Shown here piece by piece: positions 2,611 through 24,174 of a stretch of 24,267 nt of DNA. Position 1 is the stretch's first letter. Each line of letters begins with the position of its first letter. The notes beneath the pieces were generated by a model. That model was not told the DNA's origin. It searched no databases and worked only from the letters and a program-made list of their open reading frames with translations. The translations under genes and the position numbers were made by a program. This DNA is from a virus, in the IMG/VR virus record IMGVR_UViG_3300008459_000385, positions 1 through 24,267 of that record. One strand, 5' to 3'.

Positions 2611-4481
2611 TGGCAAACGTACCTGATATAAAATATTTTGATAAAGACTTTACCACATTAAAGTCAGACCTAATTAATTATGCTAGAACATATTTTCAGA
2701 ATAACTACATGGACTTTAGTCCATCTGCTCCTGGTAATATGTTTATGGAAATGGCTGCTTATGTAGGTGATGTTTTATCGTTTTACACTGACACTCAGTT
2801 ACAAGAAACATTATTATTGTATGCTCAAGAAAGAAAAAATATTATTGCTTTAGCATATGCTTTAGGTTATAGACCTAAAATAACATCAACTTCATCAGTA
2901 ACATTAGATATATTTCAATTAATACCTTCCACAGGTGCTCCTAACTATACTCCAGATTATAGATATGCTTCAACAGTAAGTAGAAATACTGTAGTTAAGT
3001 CAAATTCTAATCCATCAATAACTTTTGTTACACAAGATTCAGTTAACTTTAAGTTTTCATCATCTTTTGATCCAACAGAAGCTAATATATATCAATATTA
3101 TAGCTCAACAACTAACCCACAATATTATTTACTTAAAAAACAAATAAAAGCAATATCAGGGGAAATTAAAACAACTACTTTCTCTTTTAATAACCCAGAA
3201 CAGTTCCCGACTGTTACTATTAATGATAAAAATATTATTGAGATAATTAGTATAACTGATAGTGATGATAATACATGGTATGAAGTACCTTATTTAGCTC
3301 AAGATACAGTATTTGATGAATCATTAAATTTACCTACATTTGAACCTAATTACAGTGGTGATAATAGTGCTCGATTTTTATTACGTTTAAAAAAGGTTCA
3401 AAGACGTTTTACAACACGATTTAACGATGATAATAATTTAATATTAGAATTTGGTAGCGGCGTTACTTCAGTTCCTGATGAGACAATTATACCTAATCCT
3501 GACAATGTTGGCTTAGGTTTAGTAGATGGTATAAGCAAAATGAATATGGCTTATGATCCATCAAATTTTCAATACACAAATGAATATGGTATTGCTCCAT
3601 CAAACACTACTTTAACAGTAACTTACTTAACAGGGGGTGGTGTTGAAACAAACTTACCATCAGATGATATCAATTTAAATGATGTTATTACTGTTGATAT
3701 TAATGAATATAATTTAGATCCAACAATAGTTAATATTTCTAAAGGATCAGTTAGATTCAATAACCCAACTCCTTCATCTGGAGGTGGACCTGGTGAAAGT
3801 ACAGAACAAATAAGATTACAAGCTTTAGCTAACTTTCCAACTCAAAATAGAAATGTAACTAAGGCTGATTACTTAGTTCGTACCTTATCATTACCATCAA
3901 AGTATGGTTATATAAGTAAGGCTTATGTAGCGCAAGATTATTTAGTAGCGAATGACTCAGACAAACAAAACTTTATTAATAATAATCCATTATCACTTTC
4001 TGTTTATATTTTATCAACAGATATAAATGGTAAATTGACAAAAGCAAATAATATAGTTAAACAGAACTTAAAAACATACTTATCATATGAAAAAATGATG
4101 AGTGACGCTGTATTAATTAAAGACGCTTATTACGCTAATATTAAAGTTAATTTTGACATTTCATGTCTACCAGCATATAACTCTCAAAATGTATTAACTA
4201 AATGTATTGAGGAATTAAAAAATTATTTTGATACATCTAAATGGCAAATCAACCAACCAGTTATACATTCAGATATATATAATTTAATTGGAGCTGTTAA
4301 AGGTGTTCAATCAGTAATTAAAGTTGAAATTTTAAATTTAACTGGAGGTAATTATTCTCCATACAGTTATGACATATCAGCTGCTACAAAACAAGGAGTT
4401 GTTTATCCATCTCTAGATCCAATGATCTTTGAAGTAAGATATCCTAACTCAGATATTTATGGCCGCGTTGTAACATACTAA
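2610..4481 (+). CDS. 6: Baseplate wedge protein, gp6-like (baseplate J family)
   Basis: 623 residues, close to T4 gp6 (660). The N-terminus carries the recognisable gp6 block: a helix leading into YFQNNYMDFSPSAPGNMFM, then a domain with YVGDVLSFYTDTQLQETLL and a region ending ALGYRPK. Residues 95-380 are mainly beta strands. From about residue 400 comes a baseplate-J-like core with STEQIRLQALANFPTQNRNVTKADYLV, followed by alternating helices and strands. gp6 dimers form the inner ring that links the six wedges and drives the hexagon-to-star transition. It sits directly downstream of the gp25-like gene with a one-base overlap. The family call is strong. Confidence 0.9.
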   Translation: MANVPDIKYFDKDFTTLKSDLINYARTYFQNNYMDFSPSAPGNMFMEMAAYVGDVLSFYTDTQLQETLLLYAQERKNIIALAYALGYRPKITSTSSVTLDIFQLIPSTGAPNYTPDYRYASTVSRNTVVKSNSNPSITFVTQDSVNFKFSSSFDPTEANIYQYYSSTTNPQYYLLKKQIKAISGEIKTTTFSFNNPEQFPTVTINDKNIIEIISITDSDDNTWYEVPYLAQDTVFDESLNLPTFEPNYSGDNSARFLLRLKKVQRRFTTRFNDDNNLILEFGSGVTSVPDETIIPNPDNVGLGLVDGISKMNMAYDPSNFQYTNEYGIAPSNTTLTVTYLTGGGVETNLPSDDINLNDVITVDINEYNLDPTIVNISKGSVRFNNPTPSSGGGPGESTEQIRLQALANFPTQNRNVTKADYLVRTLSLPSKYGYISKAYVAQDYLVANDSDKQNFINNNPLSLSVYILSTDINGKLTKANNIVKQNLKTYLSYEKMMSDAVLIKDAYYANIKVNFDISCLPAYNSQNVLTKCIEELKNYFDTSKWQINQPVIHSDIYNLIGAVKGVQSVIKVEILNLTGGNYSPYSYDISAATKQGVVYPSLDPMIFEVRYPNSDIYGRVVTY

Positions 4482-4491
4482 AAATTAAACT

Positions 4492-5091
4492 ATGGACTTA
4501 AACAAATTAAAAGGACACGTTCCTGACAAAGTAATTAATCAAATCCCAGGAGTAATGGATAAATTCCAAATCAATACTCCACTACGTTTAGCTCATTTCT
4601 TAGCTCAATGTGGTCATGAATCAGGTGGATTCCGTTTAACTAAAGAAAATTTAAACTATAGTGCTAAAGGTTTAGCAGGTACATTTAAAAAATATTTCCC
4701 AACAGAAGCTGCTGCCGCATCATATGCTAGACAACCTGAAAAAATTGCCAATAAAGTATATGGTAATAGAATGGGTAATGGTCCTGAAGCATCAGGTGAC
4801 GGTGCTAAATTCTGTGGTCGTGGTTACATTCAATTAACAGGTAAAGATAACTATACAGCATTTGGTAAATCTATTAATGAGGACTTAACAAAAGATCCAA
4901 CATCAGTAGCTGACAAATATGCATTATTATCAGCTGCTTGGTTCTTTAACAAGAATGGTTTACATAAGATGGCTGATGAAGGTGCTACTGACGCAGTTGT
5001 AACTAAAATTACAAAACGTGTTAATGGTGGTACTATTGGATTAGCAGATCGTATTAAACACTTCAAAGAATACCATCACTTACTAGCTTAA
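4492..5091 (+). CDS. GH19 chitinase-like endolysin (peptidoglycan hydrolase)
   Basis: 199 residues, a complete single-domain GH19 enzyme. The general acid is E43 in AQCGHESGGF and the second catalytic Glu is E52 in TKENLNYS, nine residues later, as in phage GH19 lysozymes. The Gly-rich substrate-binding segment CGRGYIQLTGKDNYTAFGK is at about residues 108-126, and the C-terminal NGG...RIKHFKEY helix closes the fold. The family cleaves beta-1,4 bonds in peptidoglycan or chitin; peptidoglycan is the likely target in a bacteriophage. There is no signal peptide or transmembrane helix, so it needs a holin or must be carried in the virion. It lies between gp6-like and other baseplate genes rather than in a separate lysis cassette, which leaves a tail-associated role open. 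Confidence 0.9.
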   Translation: MDLNKLKGHVPDKVINQIPGVMDKFQINTPLRLAHFLAQCGHESGGFRLTKENLNYSAKGLAGTFKKYFPTEAAAASYARQPEKIANKVYGNRMGNGPEASGDGAKFCGRGYIQLTGKDNYTAFGKSINEDLTKDPTSVADKYALLSAAWFFNKNGLHKMADEGATDAVVTKITKRVNGGTIGLADRIKHFKEYHHLLA

Positions 5092-13283: not shown

Positions 13284-14438
13284 ATGTCAGCAAATGTGTA
13301 TAAAAGACTTAGTGTATCTGATACTTTCGTAGTACCATATACAGCGAATAAAAGCTGGGATATCACCTCAGGGTCTTTTACCGCTAATAAAATAACTGTT
13401 AACATAGGGACTAATTATAGTGGATCAATATTCGATCCAACTTCAGAATATATTACTAATGGTCAGTATGATAGACTAGTTTACGACTCTATCAACATGA
13501 TTTATTACCCTAATTTTCTACCTAGATATGTTGATACATCATCAAGACAAAATACTTTACTTAATGATGGTACATTAACAACATCTTCTTATTTTAGAGG
13601 ACATATTGAATTAGGTAACGCAGATACTGTAAAATATTTTCCAACTGGTGCTAATGCTTCTATTTATGTTTTAAACATACCTAGAAATTTAACTAGCGAT
13701 AAAATATTACCTACTACATTTGAAGCTTATTTTACTACAGGTTCAACATCATTTAAATTATATGATGATGGAAATTATAATTTACTTTATAGTGGAAGTA
13801 GCATGGTTTCATCTATTGGAACTACATTAACTTATGGTTCTCAAGTTGGTAATGTATTTTACGAACAAAATGTAGCTATAATAACTGTTATTCCTAATAG
13901 TATAAGACAAACAGCTTGGAGAGGAAGTAATCCATATTGTATTCAAGCATCTCCTTCTCCTAGTGCTACCCCAAGTGTAACACCAACCATAACACCAACA
14001 GTAACACCATCTGTTACTCCGACAATAAGTGTAACACCAAGTCCAGGAACTAGTCCAAGTACTACTCCAACTATATCTGTCACACCAACTATAAGTGTAA
14101 CACCTACAATTAGTGTAACACCAGGTGCAAGTACACCGCCTTCACTTAGTATAACACCTACAATTAGTGTAACACCTACTATAAGTGTAACACCAACAAT
14201 AAGTTTAACACCAAGTATTACACCATCTGAAACACCACCAATTACCCCTATAGAATCATCAGCTGTTTGTTACAGTTATATAAACTATACTGGAGGTACA
14301 GTGACTGTGAGTTACGTAGATTGTGTTGACTTTACTCATAATAATGAAATGGTAGGTCAGTTAGGTTCTATATGTGTTAAATCATTTATTGGTGGTAATG
14401 GAGGTTTGACTAACGTAAATCAATTCTGTACTTCTTAA
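13284..14438 (+). CDS. Adhesin-like tail protein 1: beta head, TPS-repeat stalk, Cys-containing tip
   Basis: 384 residues in three parts. Residues 1-218 are a beta-rich domain (SVSDTFVVPYTANKSWDI; YVLNIPRNLTSD; VFYEQNVAIITVIPN) probably anchoring to the baseplate. Residues 222-326 are a low-complexity stalk built from TPTISVTP/TPSVTP-type units, rich in Thr, Pro, Ser, Ile and Val. Residues 327-384 form a compact C-terminal domain with four cysteines (CYSY, VDCVDF, SICVK, FCTS), a plausible receptor-binding tip. It is the first of three adjacent genes sharing the stalk. The upstream TAATG at 13271-13275 opens a different frame that stops quickly, so ATG at 13284 is the start. Receptor binding is inferred from architecture. 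Confidence 0.7.
   Translation: MSANVYKRLSVSDTFVVPYTANKSWDITSGSFTANKITVNIGTNYSGSIFDPTSEYITNGQYDRLVYDSINMIYYPNFLPRYVDTSSRQNTLLNDGTLTTSSYFRGHIELGNADTVKYFPTGANASIYVLNIPRNLTSDKILPTTFEAYFTTGSTSFKLYDDGNYNLLYSGSSMVSSIGTTLTYGSQVGNVFYEQNVAIITVIPNSIRQTAWRGSNPYCIQASPSPSATPSVTPTITPTVTPSVTPTISVTPSPGTSPSTTPTISVTPTISVTPTISVTPGASTPPSLSITPTISVTPTISVTPTISLTPSITPSETPPITPIESSAVCYSYINYTGGTVTVSYVDCVDFTHNNEMVGQLGSICVKSFIGGNGGLTNVNQFCTS
13947..14261 (+). repeat. TPS-stalk coding repeat, copy 1
   Basis: Degenerate tandem repeats of about 15-18 nt encoding (T-P-T/S-I/V-S/T-V) units. Segments are identical at DNA level to parts of the next gene: 14157-14177 equals 14676-14696. Confidence 0.85.
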
Positions 14439-14441
14439 AAA

Positions 14442-14449
14442 TATTTATA
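14442..14449 (+). promoter_or_regulatory. TATTTATA motif upstream of 14454 gene
   Basis: Exact TATTTATA ending 4 nt before the ATG at 14454, within a 15-nt gap. Confidence 0.4.
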
Positions 14450-14453
14450 AAAA

Positions 14454-15059
14454 ATGAGTAATACAGGATTTAAAGCATATACAAACCTAGAACAATACTA
14501 TGTAGATAATGGTGTAGCTACAGGTATCACTAAAACAAATAGTATTAGTGATCCTGACTATGTTGCTCCTGTTTATGATACTAATTATTGTCCTTTACCA
14601 TCTTTATCAGCTACACCAACCCCAACAGTGAGTATAACTCCAAGTATTACTCCTACAGTAACACCTACAGTTACACCTACAATTAGTGTAACACCTAGTA
14701 TAACAGTATCAACAAGTGTACCTCTTTCACCTAGTATAACACCAACAATAAGTGTTACTCCTACAGTTAGTATAACACCTAGTATAACTCCAAGTGTATC
14801 AGGTAATCCAGCTTTAGTTTATAAGTATCTTGCTGATAGATACATATGTACTGGTGGAAATATTGACTATTTTGAAACTATAGTTATTCAAAACAATGTA
14901 TCAATCTCTCCTATAGAAGTTGGTAAGTATTATTTTGATTATGGTAATTGCGCTATATTCCAAATTGTAACTGAATCAATACAATCACCATCATTATTCA
15001 CTATGATAACTGATCCACCTGTTGTTAATGGTTCATCATTATGTTACGCACCATGTTAA
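14454..15059 (+). CDS. Adhesin-like tail protein 2: short head, TPS-repeat stalk, Cys-containing tip
   Basis: 201 residues. A short N-terminal domain (residues 1-48) is aromatic/Asn/Asp-rich and ends NYCPLPS, the same kind of Cys-Pro junction that precedes the stalk in protein 1 (PYCIQAS). Residues 49-116 are the TPTVSITPSITPT stalk. Residues 117-201 form a distinct C-terminal domain with four cysteines (YICTGG, YGNCAIF, SSLCYAPC) and beta character (YFETIVIQNNVSISPIEV). Head and tip sequences differ from those of proteins 1 and 3 while the stalk is shared, so this looks like a modular adhesin. It is preceded by TATTTATA and followed after 9 nt by protein 3. Receptor binding is inferred. Confidence 0.7.
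   Translation: MSNTGFKAYTNLEQYYVDNGVATGITKTNSISDPDYVAPVYDTNYCPLPSLSATPTPTVSITPSITPTVTPTVTPTISVTPSITVSTSVPLSPSITPTISVTPTVSITPSITPSVSGNPALVYKYLADRYICTGGNIDYFETIVIQNNVSISPIEVGKYYFDYGNCAIFQIVTESIQSPSLFTMITDPPVVNGSSLCYAPC
14598..14801 (+). repeat. TPS-stalk coding repeat, copy 2
   Basis: Tandem degenerate repeats encoding Thr/Pro/Ser/Ile/Val units, shorter than in the flanking genes. It shares a 21-nt identical run (14676-14696) with copy 1. Confidence 0.85.
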
Positions 15060-15068
15060 TAATTTAAA

Positions 15069-16196
15069 ATGAATTCAAGAAACTTAGATATAAACCTTAC
15101 AAAAATAAAACTCAAAAACAACCACGTTGTTTATGAGAATTTTATCAAATGTACTATAAAGGACTATGAATTTAATTTAAGTTATAACCCAACTTTATTA
15201 TCAGGTTCTCAAGCTACACTTTATCCTTATACTTATAAAAGTGGATCAGGAAGTGGAGCAATAACAGGTAGTGAGACATTTTATGAAGTAACAGGATCTA
15301 AATACTTTGGAATATTAAAGGATTTTGTTACTGGTTCTATAATGTCATCTGATGGAACATCATCATTTTCTCCATATGTTAGTACTATTGGTTTATATAA
15401 TGATGCTCAAGAATTATTAGCAGTAGCTAAAATGGCTGTTCCAACACCAATATCTGCTAATACAGATATGACTTTCTTGGTGAAGTTTGATACTCAATGG
15501 ATTGAAAAACCTTATTTTACTCCAACACCATCACCATCAAGAACACCAGCAGCATCAACCACCCCAACCCCAACTGTTAGTAAAACTCCAAGTGTTACTC
15601 CTACAGTGACGCCTTCAGTCACTCCAAGTATAAGTGTTGGAACTTCACCTTCAGTTAGTATAACACCAAGTGTGACTCCAACAATTAGTGTAACACCAAG
15701 TTTAACCCCAACTGTAAGCATAACTCCAACAATAACTGTCACACCTAGTATTAGTATAACTCCAACAGTTACACCTTCTGCTACTTTAGCATGTTATGCA
15801 TTTGACTCATCTAGTAAAGATAGTGGAACAGGTACTTTCACAACTTCAAGCATTAAAACAGAAATATATTCTTCTACTATACCTGGCTCTACAGTTATAT
15901 CAGGTTCATTTGTGACTACTTGTTCAAATCAAGTATTAAGATTATACGCGTTTAGTGGTACAGGAGGATCAAAATCACAAGGAACCATGAACGCAGTGAA
16001 CGTATTAGGTACTGGCTATGGTAACTATTCATCAGTAACTGCCTTAGTAGGACCAGGTGGAGGTTTACAAGATAACACTGAAATTATTATTAGCTTACCA
16101 GGTGTTTATAATTATACTTTAATTGGAGCTTTTTATAGTGATTCTAACCCTCCAACAACTTCAAATAGAGTATGGCTTCAATTTGAAGCACCATAA
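15069..16196 (+). CDS. Adhesin-like tail protein 3: GLYN-type module, TPS-repeat stalk, beta tip
   Basis: 375 residues. Residues 27-144 are a paralogue of the C-terminal module of the protein at 12197-13273, with a larger insertion between NLSYNPT and STIGLYNDAQELLAVAKM. Residues 151-239 are the stalk (TPTPSPSRTP, then TPSVTPTVTPSVTPS and similar). Residues 240-375 are a beta-rich C-terminal domain starting ACYAFDSSS and including FVTTCSNQVLRLYAFSG and GVYNYTLIGAFY, a jelly-roll-like pattern. The likely role is a tail adhesin whose N-terminal module docks on the baseplate and whose C-terminal domain contacts the host. It is the last structural gene before the nuclease and primase genes. Confidence 0.7.
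   Translation: MNSRNLDINLTKIKLKNNHVVYENFIKCTIKDYEFNLSYNPTLLSGSQATLYPYTYKSGSGSGAITGSETFYEVTGSKYFGILKDFVTGSIMSSDGTSSFSPYVSTIGLYNDAQELLAVAKMAVPTPISANTDMTFLVKFDTQWIEKPYFTPTPSPSRTPAASTTPTPTVSKTPSVTPTVTPSVTPSISVGTSPSVSITPSVTPTISVTPSLTPTVSITPTITVTPSISITPTVTPSATLACYAFDSSSKDSGTGTFTTSSIKTEIYSSTIPGSTVISGSFVTTCSNQVLRLYAFSGTGGSKSQGTMNAVNVLGTGYGNYSSVTALVGPGGGLQDNTEIIISLPGVYNYTLIGAFYSDSNPPTTSNRVWLQFEAP
15519..15785 (+). repeat. TPS-stalk coding repeat, copy 3
   Basis: Tandem degenerate Thr/Pro/Ser/Val/Ile-coding repeats. The long open frame on the opposite strand (15512-15742) is a by-product of this repeat composition, not a gene. Confidence 0.85.
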
Positions 16197-16212: not shown

Positions 16213-16671
16213 ATGTCAAATTGGTTATATAATGACGATGGTATTAAAATAGCTATCGCTGAAGATTTTACAACAGATTATTATGGGTTTACCTATAAAA
16301 TAACTAACCTAGAAACAGGTAAGTATTATATTGGTAAAAAAGCATTTTTCCATAATAAGAAAAAGAAACTTACCAAAAAGGAACTCGCTGAACAAACAGG
16401 ACCTGGCCGTAAAGCAACTACTCGAGTAGATAAAGTAGATAGCGGTTGGCAATCATATTGGGGTTCATCTAAAGATTTACTATCCGATGTTAAACAACTA
16501 GGTGAAGATAAATTTGAACGTGTAATACTTACATTCGCGAATAACAAAAAACAACTTACGTACTACGAATTAGAAGCTCAGATACGTTCTAATGCTTTAT
16601 TCGATGATAACTCATATAACGACAATATATTAGGCAAGTTCTATAGAAGAGATTTTGCTACTCAAAAATAA
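16213..16671 (+). CDS. GIY-YIG nuclease, probable free-standing homing-type endonuclease
   Basis: 152 residues. The GIY-like strand is YGFTYKITN (residues 24-32), followed by the YIG element GKYYIGKK (36-43). Next come a basic insert (HNKKKKLTKKELAEQ), the segment WQSYWGSSKDLLSDVKQLGEDKFERVIL and a helix YYELEAQI that supplies the acidic metal ligand (E119 or E121). The C-terminal YNDNILGKFY matches the YN-x-x motif that ends many phage GIY-YIG domains. Such enzymes act as Seg-type homing nucleases or DNA-degrading nucleases in T4-like phages. It lies between fibre and replication genes, a typical place for a free-standing homing gene. No DNA-binding C-terminal extension is present, so substrate specificity cannot be told. 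Confidence 0.75.
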   Translation: MSNWLYNDDGIKIAIAEDFTTDYYGFTYKITNLETGKYYIGKKAFFHNKKKKLTKKELAEQTGPGRKATTRVDKVDSGWQSYWGSSKDLLSDVKQLGEDKFERVILTFANNKKQLTYYELEAQIRSNALFDDNSYNDNILGKFYRRDFATQK

Positions 16672-19221: not shown

Positions 19222-19704
19222 ATGAAAGTAATCGATGTAGAAGCACCTATCTACCCACGTAAAGCATATGTGGTAGAAGCTCATGAACAAGAATACCTAA
19301 ATTTTACTAAAGGTATTGAAGTATTACCTGCTCAGTATTATGAAAATGATAATGGTAATAAGTTCTACTTCAAAAAATATCACCCAGACGGGACTCCAGG
19401 TTGGAAAGGTGGTGGTTATGAATGTACTGATACTACAGGTGCTAGTAGAGCATTTTTTGCTGATTCATTAATTATACACCCTAGATATTTTAAACGTAAG
19501 GCGAAAGCTGAAAAAATACGTACAAGTACTGGTACAGGTAAACGTGGTCGTCCAAAAATGGATCCATCACTTAAAAAGGAAGTTATAGCATATGTTAAAA
19601 CAGGTGGTAAAAGAGGTCGTCCAAAAATGGACCCAACATTAAAGAAATCAATTGTTTACGTTAAAACAGGCGGAAAACGCGGACGCCCAAGGAAAGATAG
19701 TTAA
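19222..19704 (+). CDS. AT-hook DNA-binding protein
   Basis: 160 residues. Residues 1-95 form a compact alpha/beta domain of unknown family (MKVIDVEAPIYPRKAYVVEA; FYFKKYHPDGTPGWKGGGYE; SRAFFADSLIIHPRYFKRK). Residues 105-160 carry three AT-hook motifs with the GRP core at 109-111, 132-134 and 154-156, each in a GKRGRP context and separated by 22-23 residues. AT-hooks bind the minor groove of A/T-rich DNA, which fits an AT-rich genome. It starts 5 nt after the preceding gene in the same 'gttATG' context. Likely roles are nucleoid binding, transcription control or DNA packaging; which one is not shown. Confidence 0.75.
   Translation: MKVIDVEAPIYPRKAYVVEAHEQEYLNFTKGIEVLPAQYYENDNGNKFYFKKYHPDGTPGWKGGGYECTDTTGASRAFFADSLIIHPRYFKRKAKAEKIRTSTGTGKRGRPKMDPSLKKEVIAYVKTGGKRGRPKMDPTLKKSIVYVKTGGKRGRPRKDS
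19540..19701 (+). repeat. AT-hook coding repeat (3 units)
   Basis: Three tandem degenerate units of about 66-69 nt encoding GKRGRP-x-x-D with the linker Y-V-K-T-G-G. Synonymous differences between units (cgtggtcgt, agaggtcgt, cgcggacgc) show divergence after duplication under coding constraint. Confidence 0.8.
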
Positions 19705-19718: not shown

Positions 19719-20468
19719 ATGAGAATTAGAATAAAAGAAACTAGTAATACACCACAAGCGATATTTTTAGCAGGCCCAGCGGGTGCTGGTAAATCGTTTA
19801 TAGCTAAATCATTACCATTATCTAAATTTCAGGTCATAAATGTCGACGACACTTATGAAGAATTGTTAAAAGCATCAGGAATGGGCATGAAACAAAAGGA
19901 TTTTAATCCTGATGAATTGTCACAAGCCGCTAAGTTAATGGGACAGGCGCAAAAAGCTACCAAAGAAAAATACGCTAAAGCACTTGAAAATTTAAACGAC
20001 ATTATTATTGATGGAACAGGTGCAGCTTCTAAACCATTACTCAAGAAAAAGGCAGAATTAGAGGCTTTAGGCTATGAAACAATGATGGTAATGATATGGG
20101 TTTCACCTGTAACGTCACTTGAACGTAACGCTAATAGAGACCGCTCATTAATGCCAGGTATTGTTTTAAGAACATGGAGAGACATTAATTACAATGACGA
20201 AATATACGCTAAAGCATTTGGTGATAATTTAGTTATTATAAATAACGATCCAAAAGACGCTGATAAAAGCTTTGATCCTCAAGAAATAAAGCGTAGATTT
20301 TTTGACACATCTAAGGCTAAAGGTAAACCAAAAACACCTGAAGAAATAGAAAAAACAAAAGCAGATGTTGCTCAATTAAATAAAGATATTGAGTTAGCAC
20401 TTCAACAACAACCAAAATTCACACCAGCCACAACAGCTGTTGCTAAAATAAAGGCATTCATTAAATGA
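19719..20468 (+). CDS. P-loop kinase (zeta-toxin/AAA_33-like)
   Basis: 249 residues. The Walker A motif is GPAGAGKS at residues 19-26 in IFLAGPAGAGKSFIAKSL. VINVDDTYEELL (39-50) is the substrate-side acidic element seen in zeta-toxin and polynucleotide-kinase-like folds, and IIIDGTGAASKPLLKKK is the 'DGTG' loop of the same group. The lid contains ERNANRDRSLMPGIVLRTW. The C-terminal 50 residues are Lys/Gln-rich and probably disordered. The leader MRIRIKE is almost the same as that of the gene at 23800. The last codon overlaps the next start (ATGA). The substrate (nucleoside, nucleotide sugar, polynucleotide or protein) cannot be decided from sequence. Confidence 0.8.
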   Translation: MRIRIKETSNTPQAIFLAGPAGAGKSFIAKSLPLSKFQVINVDDTYEELLKASGMGMKQKDFNPDELSQAAKLMGQAQKATKEKYAKALENLNDIIIDGTGAASKPLLKKKAELEALGYETMMVMIWVSPVTSLERNANRDRSLMPGIVLRTWRDINYNDEIYAKAFGDNLVIINNDPKDADKSFDPQEIKRRFFDTSKAKGKPKTPEEIEKTKADVAQLNKDIELALQQQPKFTPATTAVAKIKAFIK

Positions 20469-22273
20469 TAGATTTAAATACAATATTAAACGAGTTAACT
20501 GAGGATGATGATAAAAAATCAACCTCAACTATTTGTTTCTACCCAGGTGGATTTAAACCACCACACGAAGGACATTACGAAGTACTTAAAGATTTAGCTG
20601 CTCGTCCTTATATTACTAAAGTAATAGTATTAATTGGACATAAAACTCGTGATGGTATAACTAAAGAAATGAGTAAACGTATCTGGGATTTATACCTAGC
20701 TGCTGCTCCAATGGCTAAAGTAGAAGTTAAATTATCTGATAATCCTGCTCCTATTAAAGATATTTTCTCTACAATGGATAATAATTTAGAATTACAAGCA
20801 TATGTTGCTGGTACACCTGAAGATGGAGAGGATCAATCTTATTTTCAAGGCTTAACTAAAGCATTTGGTACTAGAATAAAACCATTATCAATTGAAGAAA
20901 AAGTAGTTACTCAAGGCAAAAGATTATCTGGAACTGATGTTCGTAATTTAATTACTCAACTTAAAAAATCAGTACTTGCATTACGTTCTGTATCTGATAA
21001 AAATTCAACTGAATATTCTAAGGCGAGAAACGCTTATTTGAACACATTAGAAACACTTAAAGGATGTTTTCCTGAAGTAATAGTTCAAAAGGGACAATTT
21101 GATGATATTTTAAAAATATTAGGTATTCCTGTTTTAAATATAGATCAACTTCAAGAAAATCAAGAAGATGGTAACTTAATTATACGTGTACCTTATAAAT
21201 TAACAACTAAAATTGAGAATTTTTTAGATACAATGTTAATACCGTTTGAGTATTCTCAACAATCATTTGGTGGTCAAGAACGTCGTATGTTACTTCCTAA
21301 TTTAAGTGACAATAATGAACAACGTGAAAAAGTATTACAATATCTTTCAAAAAATAACATACCAGTTAATGTAGAAGAAGATATGTTCACTGTTAAATGG
21401 TGGAAAAAAAGTTTAGATGAAACATTAGCTGAACCTCAAGACACAACAGACAATATTATAGCAGATTTTATTGAATTTGCATCTCAAGCACTTGATTTAC
21501 AACAAGTACCTAAAATTACTTTTACTGATGATGAGAATGTAGCTAAACAAATGCATTCATTAGGCGCATACCAACCATCAACTGATAAATTATTAGTAGT
21601 AAAAGGACCAAGATTAACAGCAGACATATTACGTACATTAGCTCATGAGTTAGTACACCGTAAACAAGCTGAAATAAGACCATTAAGCGCTGAAGACGGT
21701 AAAACAGGATCAGAAATAGAAAATGAAGCTAATGCCGCGGCAGGAGTTTTATTAAGACAATTTGGTCAATATAGACCTGAAATATTTGAAGAAGGAACTG
21801 AAGAAAAATCACATAAAATATATTGTGATATGGATGGTGTGTTAGTTGACTTTGAAAAAGGATATGAAGACTTAACAGGACAAAATATTAGAGGACAACA
21901 CGTTTCAGGTGGTCCTAATTTTTGGGATCCAATCACTAAAGCAGGTGCTCAATTCTGGATTAAATTACCTTGGATGGCTGATGGAAAACAATTATGGGAA
22001 TATATCAAACAATATACTCCTGTATTATTATCAGCACCATCAAGAGAAGAGTCATCAAAAATAGGTAAGTATGTTTGGGTAAAAAGAGAAATGCCTGGTA
22101 CTAAATTAATTTTACGCTCAGCTGAACGTAAACAAGAATTTGCAACACCACAATCAATACTAATAGACGATAGAAAAGATAATATTGATAGATGGAAAGA
22201 AGCAGGTGGTATAGGAATTTACCATACATCATCCGCTGACACAATCCAGCAGTTAAAAAAATTAGGGTTATAA
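20465..22273 (+). CDS. Three-domain fusion: NMNAT-like nucleotidyltransferase, HExxH zincin, HAD phosphatase
   Basis: 602 residues. Domain 1 (about 20-165) is a HxGH-family nucleotidyltransferase: FYPGGFKPPHEGHYEVL with HEGH at 34-37 and the second signature SGTDVR at 155-160, matching NMN/nicotinate-mononucleotide adenylyltransferase-type enzymes. A mixed alpha/beta segment (185-320) of unknown family follows. Domain 2 (about 330-430) is a zincin: HELVH at 394-398 with likely third ligands in EIENEAN (417-423). Domain 3 (about 450-602) is a HAD phosphatase of the 5'(3')-nucleotidase type: D455-x-D457 in CDMDGVLVDF and LIDDRKDNI at 566-574. It is one uninterrupted frame overlapping the kinase gene. 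How the activities cooperate is unknown. Confidence 0.85.
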   Translation: MIDLNTILNELTEDDDKKSTSTICFYPGGFKPPHEGHYEVLKDLAARPYITKVIVLIGHKTRDGITKEMSKRIWDLYLAAAPMAKVEVKLSDNPAPIKDIFSTMDNNLELQAYVAGTPEDGEDQSYFQGLTKAFGTRIKPLSIEEKVVTQGKRLSGTDVRNLITQLKKSVLALRSVSDKNSTEYSKARNAYLNTLETLKGCFPEVIVQKGQFDDILKILGIPVLNIDQLQENQEDGNLIIRVPYKLTTKIENFLDTMLIPFEYSQQSFGGQERRMLLPNLSDNNEQREKVLQYLSKNNIPVNVEEDMFTVKWWKKSLDETLAEPQDTTDNIIADFIEFASQALDLQQVPKITFTDDENVAKQMHSLGAYQPSTDKLLVVKGPRLTADILRTLAHELVHRKQAEIRPLSAEDGKTGSEIENEANAAAGVLLRQFGQYRPEIFEEGTEEKSHKIYCDMDGVLVDFEKGYEDLTGQNIRGQHVSGGPNFWDPITKAGAQFWIKLPWMADGKQLWEYIKQYTPVLLSAPSREESSKIGKYVWVKREMPGTKLILRSAERKQEFATPQSILIDDRKDNIDRWKEAGGIGIYHTSSADTIQQLKKLGL

Positions 22274-23224: not shown

Positions 23225-23800
23225 ATGCCATATACTCGCAAAGGAAACTGCGTATACAAAGAAACCGGTAAAAAAATGGGATGTTCAAAAGACGCATCTG
23301 CAGCCGAAAAATACATGAGCGCGTTATACGCCGCTGAAAAAGGACAATTAAAAGAAGGATATGGTGAGGACACAATTAATCCAAACGAACCTGAATTAGC
23401 CGTAACTATTGCGTTACCAAACCCAACACAGTTAATGGCTTCTTTTATCTCTACATTATTTTCATCTCGCACACAAGCACATATTTTCCATTTACAAGTA
23501 ACTGGACCTGGTTCATTTGCTACACATAGCGCTTTAAACTCTTACTATGACGGAATCATTGGTTTAGCTGATGGTTTAGTTGAGTCATTCCAAGGTCGTT
23601 ACGGTATTGTAACTGGCTATAAAGGTGAAGGACAATGGATCGAAAATACAAGCGACATAGTTAAATACTTTGAAGCACTTTGTATGTATGTTGAAAAAAA
23701 CCGTGTTTCCCTAGTACAGGATTCGTATATTCAGAATCAAATAGATGAAGTAGTTGCTTTAATCGAATCAACTAAATATAAATTAGTAAATTTACATTAA
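23225..23800 (+). CDS. Dps-like ferritin-family protein with N-terminal leader
   Basis: 191 residues. Residues 65-191 match the Dps/ferritin-like bundle of phage DUF5856-type proteins. The ferroxidase residues fall at H89, H101, D116 and E120, i.e. H-x11-H-x14-D-x3-E, the same spacing as H51/H63/D78/E82 in E. coli Dps. The helices are recognisable: TQAHIFHLQV, THSALNSYYDGIIGLADGLVESFQG, and IVKYFEALCMYVEKNR. Residues 1-44 are a leader (RKGNCVYKETGKKMGCSK; AAEKYMSALYAAEKG) not found in cellular Dps. Dps proteins oxidise Fe(II) with peroxide and can bind DNA. Its stop overlaps the next start. Iron chemistry is predicted, not shown; the bundle could also be purely structural. Confidence 0.75.
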   Translation: MPYTRKGNCVYKETGKKMGCSKDASAAEKYMSALYAAEKGQLKEGYGEDTINPNEPELAVTIALPNPTQLMASFISTLFSSRTQAHIFHLQVTGPGSFATHSALNSYYDGIIGLADGLVESFQGRYGIVTGYKGEGQWIENTSDIVKYFEALCMYVEKNRVSLVQDSYIQNQIDEVVALIESTKYKLVNLH

Positions 23801-24174
23801 TGAGAATCCGCATAGTAAAAGAAGAAGACTTTACTCCAATAGCTGACCCTAAGGAACCAAAACCAGCAGCTAAACAATTTCAAATATTAGCATCAATGAT
23901 TACTAACACTAAAGTTAATGATCAGACTAATATTTTATCTGCTATGCGCGCTTTACCAGGTGTAACTATTGTAAATTCACAAGCGGCTATTCCGGGTTCT
24001 AACTCTGAAGGTCAATTACGTTACAAAACAAACTGCGATATCAAAATTGACACATCAGCTCTTGAAGGTGATATAAAAGACGGTATTAGAAAAATTGTTG
24101 AAGATATTAAACAAATACCTGGTGTAGTTGAATTTAAGATATTACCTAAAGCTAAAGAAACAACTCCATATTAA
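23800..24174 (+). CDS. Small alpha/beta phage protein of unknown function
   Basis: 124 residues. It opens MRIRIVKEED, nearly the leader of the kinase at 19719. Residues 35-115 alternate helix and strand (NILSAMRALPGVTIVNSQ; YKTNCDIKIDTSALEG; GIRKIVEDIKQIPGVVEFKIL), a beta-alpha-beta-beta-alpha-beta order of the ferredoxin-like kind, with the repeated 'pGV' turn before each second strand. No catalytic motif is visible. It overlaps the Dps-like gene by one base (TAATG), so the two are likely co-translated and may act together. Confidence 0.6.
   Translation: MRIRIVKEEDFTPIADPKEPKPAAKQFQILASMITNTKVNDQTNILSAMRALPGVTIVNSQAAIPGSNSEGQLRYKTNCDIKIDTSALEGDIKDGIRKIVEDIKQIPGVVEFKILPKAKETTPY

Follow-up and report, generated by a model that had tools for sequence, protein, structure and literature searches.

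Why does a phage carry a Dps-like gene with an additional N-terminal leader, and where would the product act? We addressed this in the window, the whole stretch of 24,267 nucleotides that was analysed (positions 1 to 24,267 of IMGVR_UViG_3300008459_000385), whose source is an uncultured T4-like phage. We favour, with a probability of roughly 0.66, the reading that its DUF5856 mini-ferritin is carried into the prohead by a leader that can be swapped and cleaved off, and is then freed by the prohead protease.

Results

The body of the protein has a Dps-like fold

The gene and its predicted body lie as follows.

23225..23800, plus strand: leader-DUF5856 (Dps-like mini-ferritin) gene, a 191-aa ORF (PF19174; phrog_858)
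23423..23791, plus strand: Dps-like four-helix bundle of the AlphaFold2 model, residues 67-189 (helices 67-91, 97-126, 142-160 and 167-189)

By sequence family the body is DUF5856. Residues 97-187 matched PF19174 with 58.4 bits against a Pfam cut-off of 34.6, and the protein matched phrog_858, 'starvation-inducible transcriptional regulator', at 8.6e-17 in PHROGs. The listed function of the family is either unknown or that PHROGs label, and most members are found without the leader and linker described below. No paper on DUF5856 was found in the literature searched, which covered few subscription journals.

A profile of 66 relatives gave nine matches in the PDB at E ≤ 1, the best to HP-NAP (E 0.0035), and its alignment to Dps runs through the ligand residues. 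Seven of the nine are named Dps, DNA-binding stress protein or neutrophil-activating protein (Dps); the other two, 5lbh ('CAIP') and 1jig ('Dlp-2'), we take to belong to the Dps family too. The AlphaFold2 monomer model of the whole protein (pLDDT 89.6, pTM 0.69) has a beta-beta-beta-alpha leader followed by the four-helix body. Foldseek returned Dps proteins throughout its top 50, none with an E value below 0.001. In a second structural comparison M. smegmatis Dps2 gave a Z of 14.4 (rmsd 2.5 over 127 residues), but helical bundles can reach a Z of about 13 through their common arrangement alone, so the sequence profile and the ligand register also carry weight. The Dps-like fold and the four ligand residues of the initial annotation are backed by sequence profile, predicted structure and conservation.

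The window protein shares the four-helix fold and the H, H, D and E positions with Dps (E. coli Dps, H. pylori NapA, B. subtilis MrgA, M. smegmatis Dps2). Unlike these it has no Asp at the position of E. coli D67, its body is short and its leader is foreign. In Dps the ligands lie at the two-fold interface of a dodecamer, an assembly that the window protein may share. The short BC helix of Dps is also missing from the model, which gives residues 127-141 as coil, a prediction rather than a final assignment. Since D67 has no Asp counterpart and the model shows no BC helix, we file the protein as DUF5856, Dps-like, and not as a bona fide Dps, yet its function may resemble that of Dps, which oxidises Fe(II) with H2O2 or O2 and protects DNA.

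No cellular relatives were confirmed in the genome contig collection. Searching phages with E. coli Dps (an approximate query sequence) gave ordinary phage Dps matches. In BFVD, three viral entries named 'prohead protease' (A0A6J7XDU5, A0A6J7WPK9 and A0A6J7WIS1) matched the Dps-like fold along some 140 columns or more, and judging from these models they are possible Dps/prohead-protease fusions.

Four of the five classical ferroxidase ligands are under strong constraint

The positions concerned are these, with counts among the 66 relatives.

23489..23491, plus strand: H89 codon, aligned with E. coli Dps H51; invariant, 66/66
23525..23527, plus strand: H101 codon, aligned with Dps H63; invariant, 66/66
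23537..23539, plus strand: N105 codon, the Dps D67 position; N44, Q12, G9, E1
23549..23551, plus strand: D109 codon, a family-specific acid; D/E in 65/66
23570..23572, plus strand: D116 codon, aligned with Dps D78; invariant, 66/66
23582..23584, plus strand: E120 codon, aligned with Dps E82; invariant, 66/66

The alignment has 13 invariant columns and these include all four ligand positions (chance ~7e-5). H89, H101, N105, D116 and E120 lie where the initial annotation had put them, with ligand spacings of 12, 15 and 4 residues in the window protein. The distances of 15 and 4 are fixed family-wide, but the distance of 12 between the histidines is no family constraint. This was 12 residues in 28 sequences and 9 in the other 38, with all other spacings constant, and an exact 12-residue H-H spacing was therefore rejected as a signature.

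The annotated replacement of D67 by Asn (N105) was borne out and extends beyond this protein, as the position was never Asp in the 66 sequences. The fifth Dps ligand is thus lost family-wide. Such a loss (N, Q, G or E in 66/66), an H-H loop three residues shorter in 38/66 and an unpredicted BC helix would all suit a Dps-fold protein that lacks ferroxidase activity and serves, for instance, as a structural component or DNA binder within the head. We consider this alternative somewhat unlikely, as it sits poorly with two His, an Asp and a Glu that are invariant in 66 sequences and with a nearly invariant extra acid at 109. That acid (D or E), one helical turn after residue 105 and specific to DUF5856, could compensate for the loss of D67. 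With four ligands constrained, the fifth lost and a family-specific acid at 109, we infer from the alignment that the metal site is modified rather than dead.

The leader is a module shared with unrelated phage proteins

Upstream of the body the protein has two further segments.

23225..23356, plus strand: leader, residues 1-44, from alignment and recurrence (in models, strands 3-6, 9-12 and 17-20, helix 24-38)
23357..23422, plus strand: variable linker, residues 45-66, from alignment and model

The first 44 residues do form a leader containing Cys and Lys, as initially described. That it is missing from cellular Dps was also correct, but most phage relatives are without it too. Among 80 DUF5856 loci the leader was on Dps only in L001-L017, plus the window; the other 63 mostly encode leaderless proteins of 117-135 aa that begin at the body.

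The same leader, a beta-beta-beta-alpha module of ~41 residues, was found on other proteins and as stand-alone genes of 41-67 aa in T4-like contigs. BLAST placed the fusions in 12 cargo groups. Groups 1 and 2 were later recognised as one family and others may be distantly related, so a cautious count is at least nine unrelated cargoes. The leader is therefore not peculiar to the window Dps but a module common to many unrelated phage proteins. In three T4-like contigs (L113, L133 and L155) it is fused to DUF5661, and no L/I-x-E is present close to where the leader ends.

The module went unrecognised when its sequence was searched against Pfam, PHROGs and the PDB. Predicted alone, it kept the same secondary-structure elements (pLDDT 81.6) and had no significant match among PDB structures (best Foldseek E 2.7; VIA Z 4.8). 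C9 and C20 are invariant across an alignment of 48 homologous leaders, and a clearly related form (MPYTHKKVGNKYVVYKHGKKVGETKG...) has no Cys at all. This Cys-free form makes it unlikely that the leader depends on a metal or a disulfide, and a Zn ribbon or other Cys-dependent domain was rejected. Among isolated phages, INPHARED contained no convincing match, although a low-complexity filter may hide one. Neither the leaders nor the tag islands reported below were found described in the literature searched, which covered few subscription journals.

Leaders are exchanged on a neighbouring gene

Directly upstream of leaderless Dps genes lies a gene of a 27-member family, whose members bear the window-type leader (leader A), the Cys-free A-like form, leader B (MPFKSKAQQRFM...), leader C (MPAKSKAQQKFMG...) or none. 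In one pair of phages, ~99% identical (L046 and L047), the leader has been exchanged, the difference being confined to the stretch that runs from the ATG to the (L/V)KE codons; the flanking 600 bp on the upstream side and the cargo are nearly identical. The swapped-leader gene is:

L047 3716-4294: gene upstream of Dps, with leader B at L047:3716-3832

In the window lineage the homologue of this upstream cargo lies ~3 kb downstream and carries the tag MKKSELKQLIRE, and it is the Dps that bears leader A. A leaderless sister of this Dps, in L018, is missing the leader and linker between matching flanks. Leader A thus appears, from these comparisons, to be an exchangeable cassette that is interchangeable with unrelated leaders on the upstream gene. 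In many loci the leaderless Dps gene adjoins a leader-bearing gene, so co-packaging via that partner is possible there.

Leader B resembles positions 3582-3704 of MT497075.1 (53.7% over 39 residues, E 0.01), from Flavobacterium elemovirus phages. The match falls inside an 11-kb 'structural protein' gene, and on this resemblance a leader-like module inside the giant virion protein of these phages is possible.

Some bacterial Dps have DNA-binding N-termini. By analogy, the window protein could be a cytoplasmic Dps-like protein that acts during infection, its leader a Lys-rich DNA- or partner-binding tail that is never removed. The leader is indeed Lys-rich and most relatives have none, and earlier work suggested that Dps-like proteins of phages act in infected cells to counter oxidative stress (PMC8008677; PMC6669764). 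We nevertheless regard this account as distinctly unlikely, because the same leader occurs on unrelated cargo and is swapped at the KE site, a homologous Cys-free leader form exists and the neighbourhood is full of tags like the T4 capsid-targeting sequence (CTS).

The leader ends at a predicted prohead-protease site

The T4 prohead protease gp21 cuts after Glu in L/I-X-E (PMC9026906). A site of this form stands at the junction of leader and linker.

23348..23359, plus strand: predicted prohead-protease site L42-K43-E44 / G45 (conservation; coil in model)

L42-K43-E44 is the sole [ILMF]xE within the first 60 residues and lies exposed in coil in the model. Among the leader-Dps proteins (L/I)KE is present in 17 of 18 and E44 in 18 of 18, despite varying linker length. 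Some observations run against packaging: one leader-Dps (L017) has no L/I-x-E at the junction, the sequence is HVQKE in L057 and L061, and the DUF5661 cargo group is without a site close to its leader. Across cargoes, [ILM]KE occurred within 26 residues after the leader in 5.7 of the 12 groups versus 1.0 after shuffling, and none of 1000 shuffles scored as high.

The window is a fragment without head genes of its own, which also weighs against the reading. Peptidase_S77, the T4-type prohead protease, was present in 9 of 15 Dps contigs, including the leader-Dps contigs of the close relatives L002, L009 and L012. It was also found in 13 of another 25 contigs, which mostly bear the leader and are in many cases fragments. 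The head block of the relatives is T4-like, with genes resembling terminase, portal, protease, scaffold and capsid following one another in that order; apart from the protease, these names rest on order and sequence and not on profiles. In L120 and L134 a leader protein is encoded directly between the S77 protease and the scaffold-like and capsid genes. Their capsid-like proteins share ...LENQAKQL(V/I)xE (VVE, VTE or IDE), at a position that we take to correspond to the gp23 cleavage site of T4.

Neighbouring genes start with short tags ending in Glu

In relatives, genes around Dps start with short tags such as MIKLTDILKE, MRIRIKE and MKLVNILKE. The whole loci L001, L009 and L061, and many of L018-L080, contain runs of unrelated genes with a 10-residue tag of the MIKLxxLLxE type. 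A first test of N-terminal enrichment was blurred by one cluster of 467 members and was superseded by two others. In the first of these, 22% of 113 families had [ILMF]xE ending at residue 10, compared with a background of 1.9% (residues 30-79); controls with Asp, Lys, Gln or a small residue in place of Glu stayed close to background there. In the second, with one member per family, there were 24.7 matches versus 2.4 after shuffling (maximum of 2000 shuffles, 9). Removing MIKL-like starts lowered this to 9.5 versus 2.1, the highest shuffle reaching 10; a single tag thus accounts for much of the signal. Proteins starting MIKL had Glu at residue 10 in 97 of 112 cases, and synonymous codon variation within the tags suggests conservation at the protein level. 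In phages of other types the share with [ILMF]xE at residue 10 was 3%.

Three genes of the window itself start in the tag style.

19719..20468, plus strand: Zeta-toxin/polynucleotide-kinase-like protein (PF06414, 2.2e-9), starting MRIRIKE/T
20465..22273, plus strand: 602-aa protein, starting MIDLNTILNE/L, with a C-terminal 5'-3' deoxyribonucleotidase (phrog_2643, 6.1e-25 at 447-602)
23800..24174, plus strand: 124-aa protein, starting MRIRIVKE; its L061 orthologue starts MIKLVELFNE/E

Orthologues of the first start MKLKVIKE/A, MIRLSSILLE/A and MIRLVDLLLE/A. For the second, an FKPPHxGH sequence alone suggests a nucleotidyltransferase-like N-terminal part. None of the 17 plus-strand window ORFs left of 18404 had such a site at residues 5-16.

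In T4, the targeting sequence of IPIII is its first 10 residues, and processing is determined at positions 8 and 10 (PMC9026906). The neighbouring MIKLxxLLxE tags match the T4 CTS in length and cleavage position, and on this analysis the tagged genes are candidates for a large set of head cargo. Alternatively, the leaders and MIKL tags could be N-terminal signals for sorting or regulation that have nothing to do with heads (membrane, tail or expression), LxE being incidental. This would agree with the rarity of Glu at exactly residue 10 in head-gene loci (2%) and with the many leader genes far from head genes, but is very unlikely given a motif specific for Glu at position 10 and conserved at the protein level, the co-occurrence with S77 and the presence in L120 and L134 of a leader gene within the head operon.

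A model for head loading and its relation to known systems

Placement of an oligomer inside the capsid, one of the three roles offered in the initial annotation, is something that we infer by comparison, from the portable leader, the junction site, the leader swap and the tagged neighbourhood. Protection of DNA from Fenton chemistry and sequestration of iron may be further roles, and the initial interpretation is in part supported. Under the head-loading model, the leader would fold as a beta-beta-beta-alpha domain and dock onto the prohead core or inner shell. Peptidase_S77, the gp21 homologue, would then cut after E44, at the site seen in the sequence, and free a mature protein of 147 residues. 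This protein, perhaps oligomeric like Dps, would stay with the packaged DNA, where it could oxidise or bind iron via H89/H101/D116/E120 and so limit Fenton damage. It may also enter the host together with the DNA; an oligomer of Dps size would be wide for the tail tube, which counts against the model. So do the missing fifth Dps ligand and a leader four times as long as that of T4. Most DUF5856 proteins are leaderless, even in T4-like contigs; podophage genomes have the gene beside the portal in some cases and beside lysis or replication genes in others. Packaging is thus not general for the family, and the idea that DUF5856 always lies in head operons was rejected on the mixed podophage contexts.

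The principle is known from the T4 CTS and from phage Dps-like proteins; the leader type, the cargo and the scale are new. T4 IPI-IPIII and Alt, whose CTS is cut by gp21, offer a parallel: there too a phage with S77 has unrelated cargoes that carry a detachable N-terminal element with L/I-x-E at its end. The window leader differs in being folded and 44 residues long, versus ~10 (about 10-20) for the CTS, and in carrying a mini-ferritin. To judge from its sequence features, it would work like a CTS without being the same element.

Encapsulins have an HK97-type shell and load ferritin-like cargo through targeting peptides. The system proposed here similarly combines an HK97-type shell with ferritin-family cargo brought by a peptide, and differs in that the shell would be an infectious phage head and the leader a cleavable, N-terminal one. 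On balance we lean slightly towards a broader proposal, that a modular loading code, made up of several cleavable, swappable leader families and the MIKLxxLLxE tag, fills the heads of uncultured T4-like phages with dozens of cargoes, including a mini-ferritin that protects DNA from iron damage, as a counterpart of the ferritin-loaded encapsulin. Gp217 of the Vi01-like phage Sajous1, also a ferritin-like protein of a myophage, was detected by virion mass spectrometry (PMC10892097). It was proposed as a tail-associated 'ferrojan' component, and no leader was described (PMC10892097).

If the proposal is true, a leader or tag with an L/I-x-E junction is a sequence-readable handle for head-packaged, and possibly injected, proteins of uncultured T4-like phages. 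Kinases, nucleotidases, a mini-ferritin and proteins of unknown function would then be among those expected to travel inside the head. The question of why phages carry Dps-like genes would also become open to test, a candidate answer being that they protect packaged DNA and not the infected cell alone. The leaders might further find use as natural tags for loading capsids.

Other genes in the window

Several further genes of the window could be assigned. Positions 4492-5091 encode a protein with a Glycoside hydrolase 19 (chitinase class I) domain, a probable lysin. Three successive proteins at 13284-16196 have long low-complexity repeats of the SVTPTISVTPT type and are probably fibre-like, and they are followed at 16213-16671 by a SegE-like GIY-YIG endonuclease (PF19835, 5.4e-25). 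The 160-aa protein at 19222-19704 has three AT-hook-like GKRGRP(K/R) repeats at its C-terminus.
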